DNA of 55,444 nt from contig CAMAQH010000024.1 in assembly GCA_945860295.1 (NCBI GenBank), forward strand, positions 1 through 55,444. Reading direction: 5' to 3'. The translations under genes were made by a program, and so were the position numbers. Positions 29,093-40,008 of the stretch are shown here, in pieces. Every line of letters begins with the position of its first letter. Position 1 is the first letter of the stretch. The notes beneath the pieces are model-generated. The model saw only the letters and a list, made by a program, of their open reading frames with translations. It did no database searches and had not been told where the DNA came from. Source of the DNA: Prosthecobacter debontii. Its GTDB lineage: Bacteria; Verrucomicrobiota; Verrucomicrobiia; Verrucomicrobiales; Verrucomicrobiaceae.

Positions 29093-30874
29093 ATGCTGAG
29101 TCCTAGACCACGCCCATTCGCGCCTCGAGTTTGCCTTCTCAATTGTGCCACTGGCGAGCGCTCCATCGTGGCCGCCACGCCCTTCATCATTGGGGCCAAT
29201 GCCGCCGCCGATTTCCGCACCAGTTCTCTCGATTGCCCGCCCGTGCTCGGCACGATCCAGCAGCGCGGTGATGAATTTGAAGTCACCATCAATAGTGATG
29301 GCACAGCACTCGTGGATGGCGCACCTGGTTCGCAATTCACGCTGCATTTGGGTGAAGAACACACGCTCACTGCCTGCGGTGAGGTGCTCGCTTTCAAATG
29401 CCTCGCCGATCCTCAGGAGTGGCTGGCTTATGAGCACGAAATGTTCTGGCACTTCTTCGATGCGGAAGCGCGCCAATGGTATGGCCCCTTCAGTCCCGAG
29501 GAATTGCGTGATCATCTGAAGAAGCAAACACCAGATCAAGCCGCTGAGAACTTGGTCATGCCCGCTGGCCTTCGTGATGTAGGATTCTTTGTCAAAGACG
29601 TGCTCCACGTCTTGCCCGAGCGCGTGGTGGCCGCTGCCACAGATGAACTCGTGCAAGCAGTCCACGCCGAGCCAGTAAACACCGAATACGGCGAGTTCAC
29701 CTGCCCGGTCTGCTGGTTCAAATTTGATCGTGGTGATGCCATGAACATCTCTGTCCACGCAGCCCTGCGCGGAGATCCACTTTTGGGTGAAGACGCCATG
29801 CAGCGCTTTCATGCCACACGCTTCACGGATCGCGGGCAGGCAATCGATGCTATGGGCATCGCTGCGCCTGATCTCGCCTGCCCGCACTGCCGCCGTAAGT
29901 TACCACCCGGTTTCATGGAAACGCCGCACCATATTTTCTCCATCGTCGGTGCGCCATCATCAGGAAAATCGTATTACCTCAGCGTGCTAACACGCACGCT
30001 TCAGACCAGCCTGTATCAGAATTTCGGCGTCACCTTCCGCGATGCTGATCCTTCGGAAAATGTCATCCTCACGCAGATGCGTACGCAACTCTTTTCCGCA
30101 TCGACACCAGAGGACGCCTTCCTCGCAAAGACCGAGTTGGAAGGCATGTTGTACGAAACGCTGCCGCGTCTCGGCAGAAAGGTGCGTTTGCCGAAACCCT
30201 TCGTCTTTAAACTCTCGCGCCGAAACGCTCACGACACGGATTTCTCCATCGTCTTTTACGACAACGCGGGTGAGCACTTTGAACCCACGCGCAACAGCGC
30301 CGATTCACCCGGTGCACAGCACATCGCTGTCGCCTCTGGCATCTTCTTCCTCTTTGATCCACTTCATAATACGGAGTTCCGCCAGCGGCTCAAAGGTGTG
30401 CGCGACCCACAGATTCAGAGCCGCCGACTCGATCAGCAGGATGTCATCCTCGCCGAAACCGAGGTGCGAATTAAGAACGTACTCGGTCTCGATTCGCGTC
30501 AGTGCATCGACACGCCTTTCGCTGTCATGGTCGGCAAAAGCGATACCTGGGAGCCGATGCTCGGCCCCGAGCCTTTACTGCCTAGCATCGAAAAAGGTGC
30601 GCTCTTGCCAGACAATATCCAGAGTAATTCCGAGCGCATACGCGAACTGCTTCTCGAGCTTTGCCCTGCCATCGTTTCAAACGCTGAAGCCATTTCCTCC
30701 AATGTCGCCTATTTCGCCATCAGCCCCCTTGGTTGCTCCCCGGTCCAGTTTACCGACATCGAAGGCCACATCCGTATCGGCCCCGATCCACAACAGATGA
30801 AACCCAAAAACGTCGAAGTGCCGACCCTCTGGGCCATCTCCCAAATCGCCCCTGAAGTCGTGCCCAGAAAATGA
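29093..30874 (+). CDS. Multidomain P-loop GTPase-like protein (FHA-like, GYF, zinc ribbon, DO-GTPase2-like)
   Basis: 593 residues, first gene of a seven-gene operon. Residues about 12-105 form a beta-rich domain resembling FHA (FIIGANAAADFR). Residues about 115-165 look like a GYF_2 domain (WYGPFSPEELRDH). C204/C207 (CPVC) and C263/C266 (CPHC) form a split zinc ribbon. A P-loop follows, GAPSSGKS (286-293), then DNAG (390-393) as the G3-type element and VGKSD (GKSD, 481-484) in the place of the base-recognition TKxD. This order matches the double-GTPase 2 group associated with GAP1 proteins. It has no signal or membrane helix, so it acts at the cytoplasmic face. I infer GTP-driven regulation of the downstream membrane complex; nucleotide choice is unproven. 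The next gene encodes the GAP1-N2 partner. Confidence 0.75.
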   Translation: MLSPRPRPFAPRVCLLNCATGERSIVAATPFIIGANAAADFRTSSLDCPPVLGTIQQRGDEFEVTINSDGTALVDGAPGSQFTLHLGEEHTLTACGEVLAFKCLADPQEWLAYEHEMFWHFFDAEARQWYGPFSPEELRDHLKKQTPDQAAENLVMPAGLRDVGFFVKDVLHVLPERVVAAATDELVQAVHAEPVNTEYGEFTCPVCWFKFDRGDAMNISVHAALRGDPLLGEDAMQRFHATRFTDRGQAIDAMGIAAPDLACPHCRRKLPPGFMETPHHIFSIVGAPSSGKSYYLSVLTRTLQTSLYQNFGVTFRDADPSENVILTQMRTQLFSASTPEDAFLAKTELEGMLYETLPRLGRKVRLPKPFVFKLSRRNAHDTDFSIVFYDNAGEHFEPTRNSADSPGAQHIAVASGIFFLFDPLHNTEFRQRLKGVRDPQIQSRRLDQQDVILAETEVRIKNVLGLDSRQCIDTPFAVMVGKSDTWEPMLGPEPLLPSIEKGALLPDNIQSNSERIRELLLELCPAIVSNAEAISSNVAYFAISPLGCSPVQFTDIEGHIRIGPDPQQMKPKNVEVPTLWAISQIAPEVVPRK

Positions 30875-30981
30875 AGTTGGCAATGGTTGGCTGTTGATTG
30901 CGATGGATTGACATTGTTTCCAAGTCACCAACAACTGCCAACTATGGCAAACCACAGACAACAACCGCAAACCTACCCACC
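30875..30981 (+). repeat. Intergenic repeat between the GTPase and GAP1 genes
   Basis: The 107-base gap holds degenerate GGTTGGCTGTTGATTG-like words followed by their inverted counterparts. AGTTGGCA (30875-30882) pairs with TGCCAACT (30936-30943), and ATTGACATTGTTT resembles GTTGACGATTGTTT in the 2552-2697 spacer. It is the largest gap inside the operon, and it could form an mRNA structure ahead of the GAP1 gene's ATG at 30982. Confidence 0.45.
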
Positions 30982-33657
30982 ATGGCCTGGCAACTTCTCT
31001 ACACTTCAGCCCCTCGCTTGCTCGAAGCCGGTCGCACCGGCTTTGGTACAGTGGCGCGGCATCGTGGTGTCGGTGAGTTAGTGGCTGGTGCGGTGGAGCG
31101 CGTGTCACAGTTTGCCCGGCAAGCTGGACTGGGCGCGCGGCGCGTGATCCACAGCCACCGCATCATCACGGCCGGAGCCACTCAGGTGCATGTGTTCAGT
31201 TGCATCCGCGATGCTGGCTCTGATTACACAGGTCGGACAAATCATCTCGCGCACCATCTCATCGCTGATCCGCGTGAAGTTCGTGCCGCCGCAGAAGTCG
31301 GCATCACGCCCGCAGACATTTTGATGCAGATGAAATGGCGCACGTCCTGGAGCGAGCCACCACGCTTCTTGGAGCCTTCAGAAGAGATCACTTTCACCAG
31401 CCTTCGCGCCCGTGCTTTTGGTTCGGCGTGGGAGCGTCTCACGGGGCACTCAGAACTCAGCGCTCTGCCATCTCAGACCACGCGCTGCTTTGTCATCCTG
31501 CCGGGTGAAACCGATGCCCTGACTCTGTTTCAGGAATCTCTGAGAACGATGGGCATTCAGGCCGCGCAGATTACTTTTACCACGCATCTAGAACCCACGG
31601 ATGATGCAGCCGATTTCCGCTGGGTGGCCATGAATGCAAGCTCACCCCTCAGGCACCAGGCAGATGGCATCGCGCGCACCGTTCTCGATCTCACGCAGCC
31701 ACAGTCTTTACCAAAACTAGGCGCAACAGCCGTCAGTGCACCTGCTCGCACCTCCCGTGAAAGCTTCACACCGCTCCATGTCACGGCGGAGCAAGATGCC
31801 GAAATGCGCCATGCGCCTCAGTCTTCCATGCCCGGCAGTTTCATGGAGTCATTGCATCCGCTTCCGCGCGCTCGCTCTGGCCGTTTTGCAGGTATCGCAC
31901 TGGCTGCCATTCTTGTGGTCGGGTTGGGCATCGCTTCCTATTGGTGGTTAGATCAGCAGACGCAAAACAGCCCGGCACGATCCGCTGTCGATCTCGCCAA
32001 GCGGGTGGATGACCTTTGGCAGAAGCACCACCTCAAACTACCCGCCACAGCCACATGGCTGAAAAGTCAGGCCAGTGTCGCGCTCACAAATTCACATGAG
32101 AAATCTCTGCGCCTTCTTGCTCAGGCCCTGCGTGAGCCACTTCATCCGCTAGAGATTCCGCGTCCCGAGTCCACCCAGGACGAGTTCATGGAGATGCTGC
32201 AAAGTTTCAGCCAATGGCAACAGGCTGTCGTTGAGTCCGTGCGCCGAGACACCTGGTCGCGTGATGCTCCGGCTGAGATCAAAATCGAAGCGCGTGTGCA
32301 ATTGGATGCTGAAGAGCGGCTGTGGAAAAGCTTCGCCAAAAACCTCCAACGCGCTCCAGCGAATACCGAGCTACTCAAGCAGGAGATCAGCACGCAAGCG
32401 TTGAAACAATTGAACAAGTCCGCACCACCTGCTGGTGCTGCGGAGGATTGGCGTGATGTGGTTTCCTTGACCACTCATCCCGCACCACAATGGCTAGATC
32501 TCTGGGTTGGCATTTCCCATCTGCCAGCAGTTCCCGCACCACTTCAGAAATCTGATCAAGCCCTACTCACTGCGGCTGCCGAAGACAAGAAATCTCCCTC
32601 ATGGTTGCAACAGCAAGCCACCAAGAGACTCACACAAATCAGTGTAATGAATCAGAGTGACACCGACGCACTTAAAGCGGCAGAGGACATGCTGAAGCCG
32701 ACCGCATCTCAGCTTCAGGTGCAGTCTGCTGATGGCCCTAAGTCATCACATTCGCGCTATATCGTCATTGTGACGGCAGAGGTCGATTTATCGAAGGCGT
32801 TGCAAACGCTGCCCATCCTGCCCGTGCAGGACGATATGCAAATCATCGTAGGCAGTGCCGGTTTTGCTGAGACCAATCTCGTCCGCTGGCGTCAGATCGG
32901 TAGTCCCGGCGTGTATCGGAAAAGCTTCACTGACTCCGCCACGCTTGAGATCAAAGATGGGCGTCTCATCAAAGCCCCCTCAGACAAAGACTCCTGGCGC
33001 ATCATCGGACGCTCATCTACTGGCGCTGATGTCCTCTTTGAGGTGCTGCTCATTACCCAAGAAAAAACACCAACGGAAGTCTGGCACGCTGACGCCTCAT
33101 TCACTTTTCAAAATCAACATCACAATCAGCGCACCGTTCTTGATGATGCCGCAGCGAGTTGGTTGGCTAAAATTTCCCTCAGCGGAGTTCAGCCGCATCT
33201 CCGCTTGCAGAGTGTCGATGATCCCGCACATCGATTCCGCGTCCGACTTGATGCACGAGCTGCCGTGGTCGAGATCGAAACCAAGCAGCAAAAAATCACC
33301 GCCACCACCGCCCGTGTCAGCAGCCTCAGCACTGAGATCGAGGACCTGAAGCAAGGCATCCGCATTGATCAGCAGCGGAAAGCTGAAGTCGCTGGGGGTA
33401 AGCTCGCGCGCCGAGAAAAAGAGGACAGCATCATCCGCTTAGAGACCGGCATTTCTAACAAAGAACTGCGCATCCTCGAGATGGAAGAAGAAATGCGCGG
33501 CCTCACAGTGGCGACAGCGAGTCCTGTCTCCCTCGTCGGAATCCCAGCGGGTCAATATGTCCTCGTCGCCGTTGTTTTCAGCTCAGATGGCAGCGAGACT
33601 GCCCTCCGACTCTGTGAGCTGACCATCACCTCTCAACAAGCCAAGAACGCCCCGTGA
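30982..33657 (+). CDS. GAP1-N2-domain protein with one membrane helix and C-terminal coiled coil
   Basis: 891 residues from the ATG at 30982. The first 150 residues match the GAP1-N2 domain (GTPase-associated protein 1): LLYTSAPRLLEAGRTGFGTVA, VIHSHRI, then DAGSDYTGRTNHLAHHL. This family is found with double-GTPase proteins in proposed NTP-dependent conflict systems. A single membrane helix lies at about 301-320 (AGIALAAILVVGLGIASYWW), followed by an extracytoplasmic helical and beta region and a coiled coil near residues 760-840. So the GAP1 domain is cytoplasmic and about 570 residues face the periplasm. Its last codon overlaps the GTG start of the next gene, a sign of coupled translation. 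The domain name is from memory of the family; the function is inferred from its company. Confidence 0.75.
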   Translation: MAWQLLYTSAPRLLEAGRTGFGTVARHRGVGELVAGAVERVSQFARQAGLGARRVIHSHRIITAGATQVHVFSCIRDAGSDYTGRTNHLAHHLIADPREVRAAAEVGITPADILMQMKWRTSWSEPPRFLEPSEEITFTSLRARAFGSAWERLTGHSELSALPSQTTRCFVILPGETDALTLFQESLRTMGIQAAQITFTTHLEPTDDAADFRWVAMNASSPLRHQADGIARTVLDLTQPQSLPKLGATAVSAPARTSRESFTPLHVTAEQDAEMRHAPQSSMPGSFMESLHPLPRARSGRFAGIALAAILVVGLGIASYWWLDQQTQNSPARSAVDLAKRVDDLWQKHHLKLPATATWLKSQASVALTNSHEKSLRLLAQALREPLHPLEIPRPESTQDEFMEMLQSFSQWQQAVVESVRRDTWSRDAPAEIKIEARVQLDAEERLWKSFAKNLQRAPANTELLKQEISTQALKQLNKSAPPAGAAEDWRDVVSLTTHPAPQWLDLWVGISHLPAVPAPLQKSDQALLTAAAEDKKSPSWLQQQATKRLTQISVMNQSDTDALKAAEDMLKPTASQLQVQSADGPKSSHSRYIVIVTAEVDLSKALQTLPILPVQDDMQIIVGSAGFAETNLVRWRQIGSPGVYRKSFTDSATLEIKDGRLIKAPSDKDSWRIIGRSSTGADVLFEVLLITQEKTPTEVWHADASFTFQNQHHNQRTVLDDAAASWLAKISLSGVQPHLRLQSVDDPAHRFRVRLDARAAVVEIETKQQKITATTARVSSLSTEIEDLKQGIRIDQQRKAEVAGGKLARREKEDSIIRLETGISNKELRILEMEEEMRGLTVATASPVSLVGIPAGQYVLVAVVFSSDGSETALRLCELTITSQQAKNAP

Positions 33658-36656
33658 AAGCCGCCTCTCAGACCATCGAAATCCTGCGTTCCTCTTTGCA
33701 GACAGGCCTGCTCTCAGGCGCTGTCGAATCAGCCGCCGCCTGTTACGCACGGCTTTGTGCTGATGCCGACCGCCGCTTGGAAATGATCGCCACCATGATC
33801 GAAAAAGGCAGCGATTACCAGGCGCTGCAAACCGCCGAGCAAGAGCCGCCACTGCTCGATCTCGTGGCCATTCTCAGCTTCGGTGGTGAAAAGGCGTGGA
33901 TGGACTTCTGTCAGGCTCATCAGCTCCCCATCGCTCAGCGGCTTGATGCTAAAACCGTGCAGGCACTCGACCGCCTTTATGCTCAAGGCGTCACCGCCAA
34001 CCACCCGTTGTATAAAGACTTCCGCGCCGCTGTTCTCTCCCGTGAAGATGAGAAAGCACTACGCATCGTGCGCACCATCTTGAAGCTGAACCCGAGTGAT
34101 GAGAATGCCAGATCAGAACTTCTACGTTTGGAGAATAAGCATCTCCAAGACCTGCTGGAGCAACTCCGTGCGGCGCTCAAAACTGATGACGAAGAGCGGA
34201 TCGCTAAGCTCGCCGAATCACTCACCCGCATCTCTCCCGAGGCGAAGCTTCGCAGCCTGCCCGAGTTCACGCAGGCAGATGCCATTCGCCGCGCCTTGCG
34301 CCGCCGCCAGACGGAAGAAAAAATCCCAGCTCTGCTTGATGAAGCCGCCGCGCTCCGTGATGCCAATGACTGGCGCGGAGCCGCACTCGCTTTGGAGATC
34401 GTCCGTGAACTCATTGAGACACACGACATCGATCTGCCATCAGGCAGTCTCAAAGATCAACTGGAGAGCCACACTGACTTCGTGCGCCGTGAGCGCGCCG
34501 CTGCGGAGCGGAAGCGAGCGTTTGAAAATGCCCTCAGTAGCTTCACCGCTTTTGCTGAAGAAGCCGACACGCGATTACTTACAGGCGCAGGAATCGCCTT
34601 TCGCGAGATCTCTGGCATGGACGAGGGCTTTATCCGGCGCTGGCGTGAGTTGGAGAACTTTCAAATGCCAGTGCCAGATGCCACGCTGAATCGCCTGCGC
34701 CAGACGGGTCAGTCGATCCGTGCGCGTCTGGATCAGATGCAAAGCCGACGCCGCACTCGCTCGCTGTTGTCCGCAGCTGCATTGATTGCCTTTTTGCTAG
34801 TGATTGCAGCCCTCGCTGCGCATGGCTGGCGTGCCCGTGCCTTTACTGATGAGCTTGTCAGCTATCGTGCCCGCCAGCTCTGTGAGCCTGCGGAAAAGCT
34901 GATCGCAAGTCTCCGGGCTGATGAAGCACCGATGCTGCGTTGGCCTTTTCTGAAAACGAAAATCGAGGAGATCGAAGTCTGGACTCGTCAGTCACGCGAC
35001 CTGAGCAAGCAGGCGGATCAAGCACTCACCCAACTCGAATCTGAAGCAGCTAAAGGCTTCAGTGACACCGCCCCGACAGAAGTGCTCAAGCGGCTCGAAA
35101 ACACCCGCACACTCGTCGGCCAACTTCCCGGAGATGTCGCCGCGATGGCGAACAATCGACTGACTGCTTTGAAGTCAAAGTCCGAGCTGATGCTCAGCAG
35201 CGTCAATCAAGAGCGCAGTGGCAGTGGCCGCAAAACGCTGGATGAAATCACGCTGCTGCTGGAAAAAGAATTCAACTATGAACGCCCTGCTGCGGCTGTG
35301 GCTGCTGCGGTTCAAAAGCTTGAACCGATGCTGGCCAACCTGGAGATCTGGATGAAGCCCGAGGTCGATTCATTGCAACTGCCCGCTGATCTCGAAGCCC
35401 GAGTCAAAGCCGTACGAGTGCGAGTGGCTGGTTTCAAAACCGAGCTGGATCGCTTTGCCAAAGTGCGTGAATCAAGCACCAGCGCACTCACACTCGCCGA
35501 ATACAAAAAGTCGCTGCTCGCTTGGCAGGACATCCGCTTTGCAGAGGCCGCGTCCGCTTCCTCCATGCTGAATGCAATCCCGACGGAAGAGCAGTTTCTC
35601 GCCAATCTCATGACAGGTGGCGACCTCTCTGTGTGGAAGGCCGCAGTTGATGATGTGGCAGGATTAAAGATGATGCCGGAGGCGCCCATGGATAGTGATT
35701 TGAAGATCCTACTGAGCTTACGTGATGACCGCTATTTGAATGGCGTCTGGGAGAATACAGTCGTCGATCACGCACGCGGTCAAGCCACGCGCAGCGTGTG
35801 GTCGCAGGGGCCGCTGGAAGAAAGCCGCGTCGGTGACACAACCCGGCGCTGGAGTGGCCTGTGCTATGATTCACACACTGAAGATACAGGAGCCGCCTTT
35901 GTGAAGAACGACTTCAAACGCATCTCCGTCGGCAGTAGTGATCAGGGCCAAAGCGTGCGCACCTCAAAGCTCAGCAGCACCACTCAGTTCATCGATAGCC
36001 TGCAACTTGATCGCATGACCGATTCCACGGGCGAGCACTGGCAGCGGAATGCCTTGGAGGTCTTTGATAAAATCATGCAGGACAAAGCGGCACCAGCCTT
36101 GGTCAAAGCTCACGTCTTGATCGAACTTGAACGCATCACCCGCACCCAGCCATTGGCTTGGGGCTTGCATCTCACGCCGACTTTGAGAACTGACCTTGCT
36201 GACCTGCAAAAAACTATCGGTGGTTATCCGTTGCGCAGTGAGGACTGGATGGTACAAAAAGTACGCGCAACGCTGGGTGCAGCATTGACAAAATTCTTTG
36301 AGTCTCATCAGGGTCGTCAGTATCAAAAAGAAGCGCAAGCTCGCCGCGAGTTGCTGCGGGACATTAGCCTAGTCGGATTAAAATTCGGCGGCTATATCGA
36401 GAGCGATCTCTCACTTCATCTCAACAATGCAGCACGCGCCCGCCCTGAGTTGTGGCTGCTTGGCAAAACTGGCCCTCTACACATCGCTACGGACAGCAAG
36501 ACCGCACCCATCAGCGCACTGGCATTGAGCCCAGTCTTTTTTATACCCGCAGATCGCGCAGCACTCATGCAGCGCTATCAACTAGTCCTGACCGGCACAG
36601 TCACTGCCGCCCCTGCACCAGCCTCTGCGGAGACACCCTTTTTTAATGCGCGGTAA
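33654..36656 (+). CDS. Large helical single-pass membrane protein of unknown function (1000 residues)
   Basis: It starts at GTG overlapping the GAP1 stop (GTGA at 33654-33657). The N-terminal 365 residues are helical and repeat-like, with TPR-style spacing of Leu/Ala and many charged residues. A membrane helix follows at about 369-392 (SLLSAAALIAFLLVIAALAA), and about 600 residues then lie outside the cytoplasm. That part begins with a coiled coil and ends with a mixed domain containing the YDSHTEDTGAAFVKNDFKR region. I find no known catalytic motif. In the operon it could be a scaffold that joins the cytoplasmic GTPase/GAP1 to the channel proteins encoded downstream. It is 2 bases from the next gene. 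Confidence 0.7.
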   Translation: MKAASQTIEILRSSLQTGLLSGAVESAAACYARLCADADRRLEMIATMIEKGSDYQALQTAEQEPPLLDLVAILSFGGEKAWMDFCQAHQLPIAQRLDAKTVQALDRLYAQGVTANHPLYKDFRAAVLSREDEKALRIVRTILKLNPSDENARSELLRLENKHLQDLLEQLRAALKTDDEERIAKLAESLTRISPEAKLRSLPEFTQADAIRRALRRRQTEEKIPALLDEAAALRDANDWRGAALALEIVRELIETHDIDLPSGSLKDQLESHTDFVRRERAAAERKRAFENALSSFTAFAEEADTRLLTGAGIAFREISGMDEGFIRRWRELENFQMPVPDATLNRLRQTGQSIRARLDQMQSRRRTRSLLSAAALIAFLLVIAALAAHGWRARAFTDELVSYRARQLCEPAEKLIASLRADEAPMLRWPFLKTKIEEIEVWTRQSRDLSKQADQALTQLESEAAKGFSDTAPTEVLKRLENTRTLVGQLPGDVAAMANNRLTALKSKSELMLSSVNQERSGSGRKTLDEITLLLEKEFNYERPAAAVAAAVQKLEPMLANLEIWMKPEVDSLQLPADLEARVKAVRVRVAGFKTELDRFAKVRESSTSALTLAEYKKSLLAWQDIRFAEAASASSMLNAIPTEEQFLANLMTGGDLSVWKAAVDDVAGLKMMPEAPMDSDLKILLSLRDDRYLNGVWENTVVDHARGQATRSVWSQGPLEESRVGDTTRRWSGLCYDSHTEDTGAAFVKNDFKRISVGSSDQGQSVRTSKLSSTTQFIDSLQLDRMTDSTGEHWQRNALEVFDKIMQDKAAPALVKAHVLIELERITRTQPLAWGLHLTPTLRTDLADLQKTIGGYPLRSEDWMVQKVRATLGAALTKFFESHQGRQYQKEAQARRELLRDISLVGLKFGGYIESDLSLHLNNAARARPELWLLGKTGPLHIATDSKTAPISALALSPVFFIPADRAALMQRYQLVLTGTVTAAPAPASAETPFFNAR

Positions 36657-36658
36657 TC

Positions 36659-37291
36659 ATGTCTGAAGAACTCCAGCTTCAACTTCAATGGCGTGGCAAG
36701 AGCCATGGCCCGTGGACTTATGCGGAGATCCAGACGCGACTGATCGAGGGCGAAATTCACTCTCTGTATCAGGTGCGTGTGGATGGCGTTTGGCTGCCGC
36801 TGCGGGAGCACATTGAGAAGGTCGAGTCCGCAGAGTTACAACGACGTGCGACTGAAAGGGCGGCGAGTATTCGCCAGCAACCCGTCGAGAAGATCGAACC
36901 CCTGCGTCAGCGTGTCAGCGGGCGAATCGGGGAGCAGGTGAAGCGCCCCGATCCTTTCTCCAATCCACCCCCCGTATTCGTGAAAGGCACTTCTTCGTTT
37001 CTGTCGCCTGCTTTCACCGCTTCAGAAATCGCCCCGACCTGTTGGTTAGCGGTGGCTGCCTTTGTGGTGAGCTGCTGCAGCTTCGTGCCTTATTTAAATC
37101 TCGTGAGCTGGCTGCCCAGTCTGGTGCTCGGTCATCTGGCACTCGCACAGATTCGCCGTGATCCCAATCTGGACGGTCGCGGACTCGCCATCGGCGCAAT
37201 CGTGATCGCGTATGCCATGCTTGCCTTTGCGGCTTTGTCATTCCTACTCTCACCCAATCTTTTCTACCGCGTCTTTCCAATCGCAGGCTGA
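36659..37291 (+). CDS. GYF_2- and DUF4190-domain membrane protein
   Basis: 210 residues. A GYF_2 domain occupies about 7-52 (LQWRGKSHGPWTYAEIQ, then GVWLPLREH), a fold that binds proline-rich peptides. A flexible, Pro/Arg-rich linker follows (about 60-120). Two hydrophobic blocks of a DUF4190-like unit lie at about 126-162 and 175-198 (LGHLALAQIRRDPNLDGRGLAIGAI). The combination is common in Verrucomicrobia and planctomycetes. Because the GTPase gene at the start of the operon also seems to have a GYF domain, the two could bind the same partner. The gene fits tightly between its neighbours. Confidence 0.8.
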   Translation: MSEELQLQLQWRGKSHGPWTYAEIQTRLIEGEIHSLYQVRVDGVWLPLREHIEKVESAELQRRATERAASIRQQPVEKIEPLRQRVSGRIGEQVKRPDPFSNPPPVFVKGTSSFLSPAFTASEIAPTCWLAVAAFVVSCCSFVPYLNLVSWLPSLVLGHLALAQIRRDPNLDGRGLAIGAIVIAYAMLAFAALSFLLSPNLFYRVFPIAG

Positions 37292-37315
37292 AGCTTGCTC
37301 CACATTACCTCTGCC

Positions 37316-38215
37316 ATGTCACCTGATTCAACCTCCTCACGCGAGTCCCTTCCGGGCGCTAATCCTTTTCAGACGTCCATGCTGATGCTCGACTGGTCGC
37401 GCTCTGACCCCGAACGTCGGCTTGGCTTCAAGCCGGGCCGCTTCACCTCGCCGAACAAACTTTTGTCTCTCATCGTCGGGCTAGTGGCGACGGTAATTTT
37501 TTACGCGGCGCTATATCTTGGGCTGGCTGTCACTTCTGACATGCAGTGGTTGTTCGACATGTTTACGAAACGTGGGCCGTGCCCTTACCCCACGATGTTT
37601 CTCTTCTTCTGGGCCTTGTCTTTGCTTCTCTTCAAATGGCGCAAATTGGCGCTGCAACAGAAGGCTCTCTTGCTGCCCGTAATGCCGCAGCAGTCGGACT
37701 TCGAGCTGACTCCAGCCACGGCGCGTGCAGTGCGTGAGCGCATGAGTGCCATCGTGGATAATCCGCATCACTTCATCCTGCTAAACCGCATCGACCTCGC
37801 ACTAGCGAATCTGCATAACATCGGCCAGACGGCTGATGTGGCAGCGATTTTAAAAATCCAAGCGGAGAATGACGAAGCGCAGATCGCCTCAAGCTATGCG
37901 ATGACGCAAGGCTTCCTCTGGGCCATTCCGGTGCTGGGGTTCATCGGCACGGTGCTGGGACTAGGTCAGGCCATCGCCGCTTTCGGAGCAACGCTGAGAG
38001 CTGGTGGTGACTTGGTGGCACTGCGACACTCGCTTGAGTCCGTCACCGCTGGTTTGGCCACCTCATTTGAGACCACTCTGGTGGCGCTGGTCTGTGCGCT
38101 CATTCTTCAGCTCATGATCAGTTGGCTACAAACTTTAGAGTCTGAGTTTCTCGACTCCTGCAATGAGATCTGCCACAAGAACGTAGCTGGCAGACTGCGA
38201 CTCAACGCCCATTGA
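37316..38215 (+). CDS. MotA/TolQ/ExbB-family proton-channel subunit
   Basis: 299 residues from the ATG at 37316; a TTG at 37295 would add seven unlike residues. Four membrane segments lie at about 48-72, 92-107, 198-224 and 244-272. The last two carry the family pattern: QGFLWAIPVLGFIGTVLGLGQAI, then VTAGLATSFETTLVALVCAL, with small and threonine residues that line the ion path in ExbB/TolQ/MotA. A large cytoplasmic loop (108-197) separates helices 2 and 3. Family members form pentamers around a dimer of a single-pass partner and turn proton or sodium flow into motion. The partners are very likely the two genes that follow. Confidence 0.88.
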   Translation: MSPDSTSSRESLPGANPFQTSMLMLDWSRSDPERRLGFKPGRFTSPNKLLSLIVGLVATVIFYAALYLGLAVTSDMQWLFDMFTKRGPCPYPTMFLFFWALSLLLFKWRKLALQQKALLLPVMPQQSDFELTPATARAVRERMSAIVDNPHHFILLNRIDLALANLHNIGQTADVAAILKIQAENDEAQIASSYAMTQGFLWAIPVLGFIGTVLGLGQAIAAFGATLRAGGDLVALRHSLESVTAGLATSFETTLVALVCALILQLMISWLQTLESEFLDSCNEICHKNVAGRLRLNAH

Positions 38216-38218
38216 TTC

Positions 38219-39070
38219 ATGAGACAACGCTTTGGCAACCATGGTGCGGGAGGCGTGAGCTTCTTCGGCTTTCAGTCTGTGATCACGGGCACTGTGGGCT
38301 TCATCATTGTGCTCACGTTGTTCTTAGCGCTGTGCGTAAAGGACATCATCCCGAGGCCGCATGCGGAAGGTCAGCCACTGGCGAAGCGTGAAGGTGATCT
38401 GCACTCCATGCAGTCGCGCATTCTCTCACTGAAGAAGCTCGTCGGTGATCTGCAAAAACGGCCCGCTGATGATGAAGCGACACTGAAGCGTATGATCGGT
38501 CAGCTTACCAGTACTGTGGCGCAATTGCAGACGCCGCCGACGCCCGGTCTGGGCCGTGATTTCGATGCCACGGCGATGGATCGTGAGCTGCGTGATGCGA
38601 AAAAGAAGCTGCTGACGAAGCTCGATAAGATGAACGCCTCCATGCATGACGCGGAGTTGCTTTCCTCAGGCATCAACAAGGACATCCCTGATCTGGAGAA
38701 GAAGGTGAAGGATGGGCAAAGCTCCCTGCAACGCATGCACAGTCGCCGCAATGTGATCAGCCTGGTGCCGGAGCGCATGGATACAAACAAGGAACCCGTG
38801 CTGGTGCTGGTGCAAGGCTCGCTGATTCGCTTTCAACGGGCTGATGGCGTGTCAGCTTCGGCAGGTTCTATTCCTGATTTTGTGAACTACTTGCGATCTG
38901 TCACGGCGGCGACTCACTACGTTGTCTTTTACTTCAAGCCATCTGGCGCAAATCACTTCGAGTCACTGACCAAACGTGCACGACAGGAAGGCTTTGAGAT
39001 TGGATACGATGTCATCCCTGAAGACATGGACGTGGAGTTTCACAACAACGTGCCGGTTTCAAAACCATGA
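38219..39070 (+). CDS. ExbD/MotB-like single-pass partner, paralog A (no acidic residue in the membrane helix)
   Basis: 283 residues, 3 bases after the channel gene. A short N-terminus, one membrane helix at about 19-41 (SVITGTVGFIIVLTLFLALCV), a long coiled coil (about 55-180) and a C-terminal domain (about 190-283). The C-terminal domain has the same strand-helix pattern as that of the next gene: VLVLVQGSLIRFQ here and [13 protein letters not shown] there, and later HYVVFYFKPS here versus [11 protein letters not shown] there. The membrane helix contains no Asp or Glu, unlike ExbD and MotB, whose helix carries the ion-binding aspartate. It overlaps the next gene by ATGA at 39067-39070. Confidence 0.7.
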   Translation: MRQRFGNHGAGGVSFFGFQSVITGTVGFIIVLTLFLALCVKDIIPRPHAEGQPLAKREGDLHSMQSRILSLKKLVGDLQKRPADDEATLKRMIGQLTSTVAQLQTPPTPGLGRDFDATAMDRELRDAKKKLLTKLDKMNASMHDAELLSSGINKDIPDLEKKVKDGQSSLQRMHSRRNVISLVPERMDTNKEPVLVLVQGSLIRFQRADGVSASAGSIPDFVNYLRSVTAATHYVVFYFKPSGANHFESLTKRARQEGFEIGYDVIPEDMDVEFHNNVPVSKP

Positions 39071-40008
39071 GGAAATTCCAACAGCCCAATTCGGAGAACA
39101 TGGATCTGCTGCTCGACACGCTGTGCGATCTGCTGGGAACGCTCGTGCTCATCGCCTGTCTGCTGGTCGTGACCATGCAGAATGAAGATGGATCCGAGCA
39201 GAAGAAACCAGCTATCGCCTCGGGCAAAGAAGCGGGCATCCTGGCGGAGAAGCGCATCGAGATGGCCCAGGCTGAGCTGGATGGTTTGCAGAAGCTGCGG
39301 GCTCAGTTGCAGAGTGAAGATGATCCTTCTCTGCTGCCGCTCATTAACGAGTTGGAGGCTTTAAAAAAGACGGCTGAAAAGCTGAGGCAGGACAAGGCAA
39401 AGCAGGATGAGATCGCTTCAGAGAAAGCGAAGCAGATGGCGCGTGATATCGGCATCGAGGTGGCCCGGTTGCGTGAGCAGGATCAAGAGATCGAGAAGAA
39501 GCTCGCCATCGCCAACAAGAACACTGAAGCGGCGAGGCAGGTGAAGTCTGCGCTGGAGAAACAGCTCGCTGATCTGCAACTGGAGCTGGAGAATGTGGAC
39601 GACCTCAAGATCGAAAAGCTGCGCTTTCCGCGTGAGCGAGCCATCAACAAAAACGCCGCGCCTATCATCGTGCAATACGGTCAGGTCTTTCCGCTCTTTG
39701 ATGGCGGTGGCAATCCCATGCCCATGGTGCGCCAGGTGCCTTCAGCGGATGGCAGTTTCACGGCGTTTGCCAATCAAGGTCAAGGCCTGAGTCCGAACCT
39801 GCAAGCCAAGCAGTTGCGTGAGATTTTAAAGCAACTCGGCAGTGGGAATCGTTACCTCACGCTCTACGTCTATCCCGACTCTTACGCGACGCTGCGTGAG
39901 TTGAAGAAGCTGATCTATGAAGTCGGTGTCGATTACGGCATGGATCTGCGCAAGGAGCAAAGCGTCCTCATCTTTGATCCCAAAGGCGCCAAGCCTGCGC
40001 CGCTCTGA
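39067..40008 (+). CDS. ExbD/MotB-like single-pass partner, paralog B (aspartates in the membrane helix)
   Basis: 313 residues. The membrane helix begins at about residue 13 ([23 protein letters not shown]) and holds D13, D17 and D21. One of these probably does the job of ExbD D25 or MotB D32, the residue that carries the proton. A coiled coil follows (about 45-190, [11 protein letters not shown] to VDDLKIEKL), then a C-terminal domain paralogous to that of the gene before it, ending [19 protein letters not shown]. It is the last gene of the operon; after its stop a 58-base gap leads to an unrelated Gfo/Idh/MocA gene on the same strand. Confidence 0.75.

Follow-up and report, generated by a model that had tools for sequence, protein, structure and literature searches.

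A seven-gene block of Prosthecobacter debontii that unites a DO-GTPase/GAP1-N2 gene pair with an ExbB-type channel and two single-pass partner proteins

Two predicted bacterial systems that were described apart form the background to this work. The DO-GTPase/GAP1-N2/GYF half was published by Kaur et al. in 2020 as a predicted conflict system, with Verrucomicrobiae named among the hosts (PMC7159879). An FNIII-repeat protein was given there as the mark of GAP1-N2 systems, and planctomycete cases coupled to GYF proteins were also given. A motor of the Planctomycetes–Verrucomicrobia–Chlamydiae (PVC) group, described in Mol Biol Evol in 2025, comprises one TolQ-like protein and two different TolR-like proteins, with a vWA protein as the proposed force transducer (PMC12204202). 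The AglR/Q/S motor of Myxococcus consists of one MotA-like and two MotB-like proteins and is bound, and probably activated, by the GTPase MglA (PMC9120999). Herein, we analyzed 55,444 nucleotides of Prosthecobacter debontii DNA (contig CAMAQH010000024.1 of assembly GCA_945860295.1; hereafter, the window), part of a 75-contig assembly of 4.68 Mb that is 95% complete. Seven plus-strand genes at positions 29093–40008, g1 to g7, place a DO-GTPase/GAP1 switch beside a channel with two unlike partners. The block is a union of two known predicted kinds, and the union itself is the part that may be new. The original prediction, made from the sequence alone, had called the gene set undescribed, which fails for the switch half (PMC7159879) and for the motor half (PMC12204202), each already published separately. 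The main text of Kaur et al. does not contain ExbB, TolQ, MotA, or "proton channel" (figures and supplements lie outside this count), and PMC12204202 mentions neither GTPase nor GYF. The union of a DO-GTPase/GAP1-N2 switch with a TolQ plus two-TolR motor was not found in print, in a search that left most subscription papers, preprints, figures, and supplements outside.

The block probably encodes a motor of the 5:2 (ExbB/TolQ/MotA) kind that spans the inner membrane, is driven by ions, and is switched by a GTPase. We prefer this reading because of the membrane and GTPase anatomy of the proteins, for which MglA and AglR/Q/S offer a precedent (PMC9120999). A GTPase-regulated, ion-driven inner-membrane apparatus had also been predicted originally, and it was kept as the best inference on the grounds that the seven genes co-occur and that threonines of the channel are invariant. 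The block ties a predicted GTPase conflict system without a known work stroke to PVC motors without a known regulator. If the reading is true, the GTPase side would gain an energy-driven output and the motor side would gain a switch.

Co-occurrence of the genes was followed across 387 Verrucomicrobiota genomes, 72 of which contained GAP1-N2. We examined 79 GAP1-N2 places, namely the window and 78 of the 80 listed, with a weak place in G283 left out; 76 of them fitted the g2 (GAP1) model, L045, L075, and L082 being the exceptions. Among these 76 loci, g1 was present in 70, g3 in 63, and g5 in 30. Every one of the 30 g5-bearing loci carried both g6 and g7, and 29 kept the order g5-g6-g7, with g7 elsewhere in the block in L100. 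Three of these 30 stretches ended before g6, and further fetched sequence showed the complete trio in each. Sub-blocks were permuted and yet remained together in L050, L100, and L111. The predicted co-occurrence of the seven genes as one block was thereby upheld within Verrucomicrobiota. Among these loci, the motor genes were confined to one type of switch: GAP1 was at least 500 amino acids long in all 30 g5-positive loci, and where 3 kb or more of downstream sequence was available, none of the 16 short-GAP1 loci had g5, versus 30 of 44 long-GAP1 loci (Fisher p = 2e-6; the 30 positives were counted whatever their flank length).

A search in the other direction gave a similar picture. A g7 profile run over the 387 genomes matched 37 at E<1e-20; GAP1-N2 was present in 34 of these and in 38 of the remaining 350. 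As the profile derives from GAP1-linked g7, it is biased towards that clade. The three GAP1-N2-negative genomes were G343, in which the contig breaks off directly before the trio, G385, which has g3 to g7 with no g2 seen in its remaining 2 kb, and G261, with a GTPase-free trio. In six genomes (G002, G064, G132, G246, G328, and G337), a contig end interrupts the GAP1 locus, and genes of the g3–g7 part were located near the end of another contig. In G002, the genes from g3 to g7 are close to the end of one contig (L158, 12923–19900) and g1 and g2 are at the end of another (L063), as if the assembly had split one block. Because the same genes adjoin in many genomes, their arrangement is not due to chance.

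The switch half begins with g1 (29093–30874, plus strand), which encodes a cytoplasmic DO-GTPase2-type GTPase of 593 amino acids. The window copy scored 22.5 bits against DO-GTPase2, below the Pfam cut-off of 27; the family was matched at E<=0.01 by 28 of 32 aligned g1 sequences, window included (32 of the 33 sequences from channel-bearing loci were aligned). The GTPase motifs were invariant in all 32, namely the P-loop G286-x4-G291-K292-S293, D390-x-x-G393-E394, and K482-x-D484, as were the four cysteines of a zinc ribbon (C204/C207/C263/C266). These results bear out the P-loop GTPase-like protein first proposed from the sequence. Pfam also matched GYF_2 in 16, FHA in 5, and Zn_ribbon_4 in 4 of the same 32 sequences. 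In the window copy, N-terminal FHA-like and GYF-like regions were recognized by eye only, and Pfam gave no GYF match in the window copies of g1 or g4. A gene of about 358 amino acids is conserved before g1 in 10 loci (L064, L067, L079, L093, L094, L107, L108, L109, L112, and L114); neither of the two tested had a Pfam match.

Downstream of g1, g2 (30982–33657, plus strand) encodes a GAP1 protein with an N-terminal GAP1-N2 domain, a membrane helix, and a C-terminal part with coiled coil, the last seen by eye. GAP1-N2 (PF20013) matched at 69.5 bits (cut-off 24) over residues 29–156 of the open reading frame (ORF). The ORF opens at TTG 30898; ATG 30982, its residue 29, is the more likely start because the GAP1-N2 domain begins there. 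The g1–g2 gap is therefore about 107 bases, so that the few-base gaps of the original prediction did not hold here, although its overlaps did. The GAP1-N2 identity of g2 was likewise confirmed, and its single membrane helix was only partly so: a count by simple hydropathy window, which is crude and was used throughout, gave two in the window copy and one in nearly all long relatives. Close g2 relatives were found in four loci, among which L009 and L012 belong to Verrucomicrobiaceae and L010 is cut off inside g3. As in the GAP1-N2-type DO-GTPase systems (PMC7159879), a zinc-ribbon DO-GTPase adjoins a GAP1-N2 protein with a membrane helix, and relatives include a GYF protein fused to trypsin or to a membrane-rich region (in the window, DUF4190 by Pfam and GYF by eye). 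Unlike those systems as described there, FNIII was matched in none of the seven block proteins.

The motor half consists of g5, g6, and g7. The channel subunit g5 (37316–38215, plus strand; about 300 amino acids) scored 31.6 bits against MotA_ExbB (PF01618, cut-off 22.9), which confirms the MotA/TolQ/ExbB channel proposed at the outset. Its start is probably ATG 37316 rather than the ORF-opening TTG 37295, because relative L011 starts there. Residues T219, T260, and T261 were invariant in 28 aligned sequences (28 of 29 for g5; 27 of 29 each for g6 and g7), at positions that we take to be those needed by a TolQ/ExbB-type motor. The two genes that follow, g6 (38219–39070) and g7 (39067–40008), both on the plus strand, encode single-pass proteins that are mutually homologous, a model of either finding the other. 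Each has one N-terminal membrane helix, with the motif F-x-F-Q-[D]-I-I-T in g6 and L-L-L-D-T-[ML]-C-N (Asp17) in g7, the latter followed by a long coiled coil and a C-terminal domain. Membership of g6 and g7 in the ExbD family gained no support: Pfam was negative, and hhalign against 7 and then 39 ExbDs gave negative or non-significant results. The likeness is one of layout; the predicted ExbD/MotB-like partners thus stand as single-pass proteins and lack an ExbD assignment by Pfam or by profile comparison with 39 ExbDs. A structure prediction used for the same question was poor (predicted local distance difference test, pLDDT, 56). In a PDB search, g5 had no match and g7 had coiled-coil matches only.

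The membrane aspartate distinguishes the window pair from its relatives. In g7, it was present in 29 of 29 sequences and invariant in the 27 aligned. In g6, it was present in 28 of 29 (a pattern count captured 26 of the 28), and the sole exception was the window copy, which has serine at codon 20 (tct at 38276–38278). GTPase-free relatives L164, L165, and L167 and the relatives on two cyanobacterial plasmids also have serine in the g6-type and aspartate in the g7-type protein, as aligned by eye. Both proteins of L153–L156 carry aspartate. Because the window, GTPase-free, and plasmid relatives carry such Ser/Asp pairs, one aspartate per g6/g7 pair seems to be tolerated, as far as sequence comparison can tell. 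The window would then offer a natural two-subunit rotor with one aspartate lost, making the need for both protonation sites in a 5:2 motor directly testable.

The trio resembles several known motors. By description, it shares with the PVC motor (PMC12204202) a TolQ-like gene followed by two TolR-like genes that differ from each other, and a vWA protein after g7 in some relatives; unlike that motor as described, there is no vWA gene beside the window block and no tetratricopeptide repeat (TPR) in g3 (Pfam, 0/40). In seven loci (L067, L079, L094, L107, L108, L109, and L112), the gene after g7 encodes a single-pass protein whose linker is Gly-rich, and the two tested have vWA. In common with the Myxococcus MglA/AglRQS/Glt machinery (PMC9120999), the block combines a GTPase with a proton motor of the TolQ plus two-TolR type. 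It differs in its GTPase family, which is DO-GTPase and not small Ras-like, and membership of Agl/Glt was rejected, as AglQ and AglS match ExbD in Pfam (PMC3169522), whereas g6 and g7 have no ExbD/TolR match. Like Zorya, with its ZorAB motor (PMC11890865), the block has a MotA/ExbB-type motor, here in what may be a conflict setting. The window has no ZorC, ZorD, or ZorE and no OmpA-type domain as in ZorB among the 17 proteins scanned (seven block and ten flanking), g5 lacks the long ZorA cytoplasmic tail, and a GTPase/GAP1 pair is present instead; membership of Zorya was rejected on these grounds. ExbBD-TonB and TolQRA share an ExbB/TolQ-type channel with invariant pore threonines, and differ in having one short ExbD in place of two unlike long coiled-coil partners and in lacking the link to a GTPase. 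A TonB-type motif in the spacing S-x3-H-x6-L-x3-S was absent from the first 120 residues of 12 proteins encoded downstream of g7.

Inheritance of the block was followed through protein distances and a tree. The distance matrices of g1, g2, g3, g5, g6, and g7 from 29 loci correlated at 0.79–0.90, and 0 of 999 permutations reached any of these values; the correlations are not corrected for the species tree, and shared ancestry alone would also yield them. In one concatenated tree, families f22 and f27 were intermixed with high support, f27 appearing in three places. The f22 locus L113 grouped with Verrucomicrobiaceae at full support, nearer than the same-class L050. Transfer of whole blocks between families is the simplest reading of these sequence relationships, with shared ancestry explaining part of the correlation.

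A working model can be built from these parts. Five g5 subunits would enclose a g6 helix and a g7 helix, making the rotor a heterodimer. Ions passing to the aspartate of g7 would turn or shift this rotor, and the force may reach outward through the coiled-coil arms of g6 and g7 together with the distal portions of g2 and g3. In the cytoplasm, the DO-GTPase g1 and its GAP1 partner g2 would form an on/off switch that reads a signal via the FHA, GYF, and zinc-ribbon parts of g1. Held by its GYF domain, g4 could serve as an interchangeable module, a small membrane domain here and a trypsin or PrsW protease elsewhere. It is doubtful that the block forms a distinct class in which an ExbB-type ring, gated by a DO-GTPase/GAP1 switch, holds a rotor that must be a heterodimer, with the Asp of one subunit sufficing, and in which interchangeable modules docked through GYF put the force to use in immunity or at the envelope.

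Several results weigh against a GTPase-switched motor. No g5 was found at 46 of the 76 GAP1-N2 loci, although 16 of these had less than 3 kb seen downstream. The g5-less loci with at least 3 kb seen comprise 14 long-GAP1 and 16 short-GAP1 loci, and because of these the switch works without the g5–g7 motor in some lineages. Conversely, the g5-g6-g7 trio occurs without the GTPase in L153–L156, L162, and L164–L167 and on the two cyanobacterial plasmids. ExbD is not matched by g6 or g7 in Pfam, and in the hhalign comparison with 39 ExbDs, the C-terminal domains fell in the expected register at E 0.009–0.019 and a probability <5%, which is not significant. Both structure predictions, for g6/g7 and for g3, are too weak to use. 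The window g6 itself is without the membrane aspartate, its partner g7 keeping its own. Some of these points would fit two independent modules that merely co-occur, with a GAP1/GTPase signaling unit and a Tol/Ton-like motor sharing an operon in some lineages and neither directly controlling the other; each module does exist without the other. We consider such co-residence quite improbable, given the strong genome-wide association, the adjacency kept through permutation, the correlated distances, and the limitation of the motor to the long GAP1 type.

The likelihoods that we attach to possible roles, co-residence included, concern what the block is for and overlap with that of the GTPase-switched motor, which concerns how it works. 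Our guess is an accessory envelope machine passed between lineages, with a response to envelope attack or stress as the first candidate role and surface movement as the second. An accessory or conflict role is favored because of the exchangeable g4 modules, the patchy and family-crossing occurrence, and the plasmid relatives beside CRISPR genes. Envelope mechanics is favored because of the GTPase-free trios among housekeeping genes, the PilM-linked switch, and the vWA after g7 in some relatives. In an anti-phage conflict system, a GTPase/GAP1 threshold switch would be joined to a ZorAB-like envelope motor that senses or acts, and a GYF-fused effector would kill or contain the infected cell. 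We hold this role to be plausible without being probable. The modules at the g4 place vary and include proteases, and the presence of the switch in 72 of 387 genomes, together with the mixing of f22 and f27 in the tree, is as expected of an exchanged accessory system. Homologous trios of ExbB-like, g6-type, and g7-type genes lie on a Microcystis plasmid beside DNA methylase, SLATT, and helicase genes (L178, 8536–11136) and on an Anabaena plasmid beside type III-B CRISPR genes and viperin (L179, 8536–11115); neither, however, has an annotated GTPase nearby. PADLOC gave only weak matches in the block, with g5 resembling ZorA2 at 23.1 bits over 101 residues and g7 resembling coiled-coil proteins such as LmuB at 21.5 bits. 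No nuclease or toxin was found in a Pfam scan of the seven proteins. The defence-island setting that was looked for did not appear in the proteins scanned: the ten proteins flanking the window block had two PADLOC matches, both generic-looking (an ABC1 kinase to PD-T4-6 at 28.7 bits and a spermidine-synthase-like protein to mad2 at 52.2 bits), and among 52 flanking proteins of 22 related loci (52 of 66 listed, with no control set), three families, PDC-M72A, mad3, and mad2, were matched by one member each at E<=1e-10.

A machine for surface movement, adhesion, or trafficking like MglA-AglRQS-Glt, in which a polarized GTPase places and activates a TolQ/two-TolR motor that pulls envelope components, appears unlikely. 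It has the same kinds of part in its favor, a GTPase, one TolQ-like protein, and two unlike TolR-like proteins (PMC9120999, PMC9389320), and the single-pass protein after g7 in seven relatives, two of which were tested and have the vWA domain proposed as force transducer in PMC12204202. Further support comes from the 10 short-GAP1 loci (L070, L072, L085, L088, L090, L091, L095, L098, L099, and L105) in which the switch genes are followed, after g3, by a gene of one and the same cluster, both tested members of which match PilM_2 (48 and 42 bits). MglA docks on GltJ through a GYF domain and a zinc ribbon. Against this role, the GTPase matches DO-GTPase rather than one of the small Ras-like families, and a Pfam scan limited to the seven block proteins matched no small Ras-like MglA, no MglB-type domain, and no Glt envelope protein, although several Glt proteins have no Pfam domain. 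The same scan recognized neither an adhesin nor an outer-membrane part in the block. To our knowledge, gliding is not known in these Verrucomicrobia.

Two genes lie between the switch and the motor. The original prediction of a 1000-residue helical membrane protein was sustained for g3 (33654–36656, plus strand), in which one membrane helix was counted, near residues 370–391 as placed by eye. It has no known family: no Pfam family stood above cut-off or matched more than 1 of 40 aligned g3 sequences, and TPR was matched in 0 of 40 at E<=0.01. The PDB search returned weak similarity to coiled-coil proteins or to designed helical ones (best E 7e-4; 0.014 and worse for designed TPRs), and these candidates were set aside. 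The structure prediction was of low confidence (pLDDT 51), with helices to about residue 630. The next gene, g4 (36659–37291, plus strand), is the exchangeable member of the block, with a GYF-like N-terminus seen by eye and a two-helix DUF4190 membrane tail. Of its predicted GYF/DUF4190 identity, the DUF4190 part was confirmed at 47.5 bits (cut-off 35), and the GYF part went unmatched by Pfam in the window copy. Among 29 aligned proteins at the g4 place (29 of 30 sequences), Pfam matched GYF_2 in 16, DUF4190 in 6, Trypsin_2 in 5, PrsW in 3, DUF805 in 2, RDD in 1, and TM2 in 1. We use g4 for GYF-type proteins at that place and not for a single orthologous family, because the model grew from 9 to 50 hits by iteration, driven by the GYF domain.

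The seven plus-strand ORFs and the overlaps GTGA at 33654 and ATGA at 39067 agreed with the layout first proposed. Promoter-like sites in the region numbered 4, versus 3.5 in shuffles, and terminator-like sites 12, versus 11.4, with no excess of either. None of the seven block proteins had an above-cut-off match in PHROGs or NCBIfam. Viral contigs searched with g7 gave 17 pattern matches and no relative, and phages searched with one g6-type protein gave no match. In plasmid searches, two records aligned with a third of the window g5, and two Rhodococcus records aligned with half of the window g1 at 25% identity; the Anabaena g7-type protein found itself and its Microcystis counterpart.

Some neighboring arrangements were noted, mostly by eye. 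In certain short-GAP1 loci, PilO- and PilP-like genes may come next, without Pfam support in the three tested, and neither a pilus secretin nor a pilus ATPase stood out in three genomes that were inspected further. The GTPase-free trios of L154–L156 share a common setting of apparently housekeeping genes, and a small single-pass protein follows the trio in L153–L156; neighbors of L159 and L163, for which gene calling took some antisense frames, are excluded from these comparisons. Elsewhere in the window's own genome (L007, 1–3309), an ExbB-type gene precedes two tandem genes, both above the ExbD cut-off. L045 and L082, which lie outside the g2 model, carry two GTPase genes with HSP70-like genes, an arrangement that resembles the second theme of Kaur et al. 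(PMC7159879).

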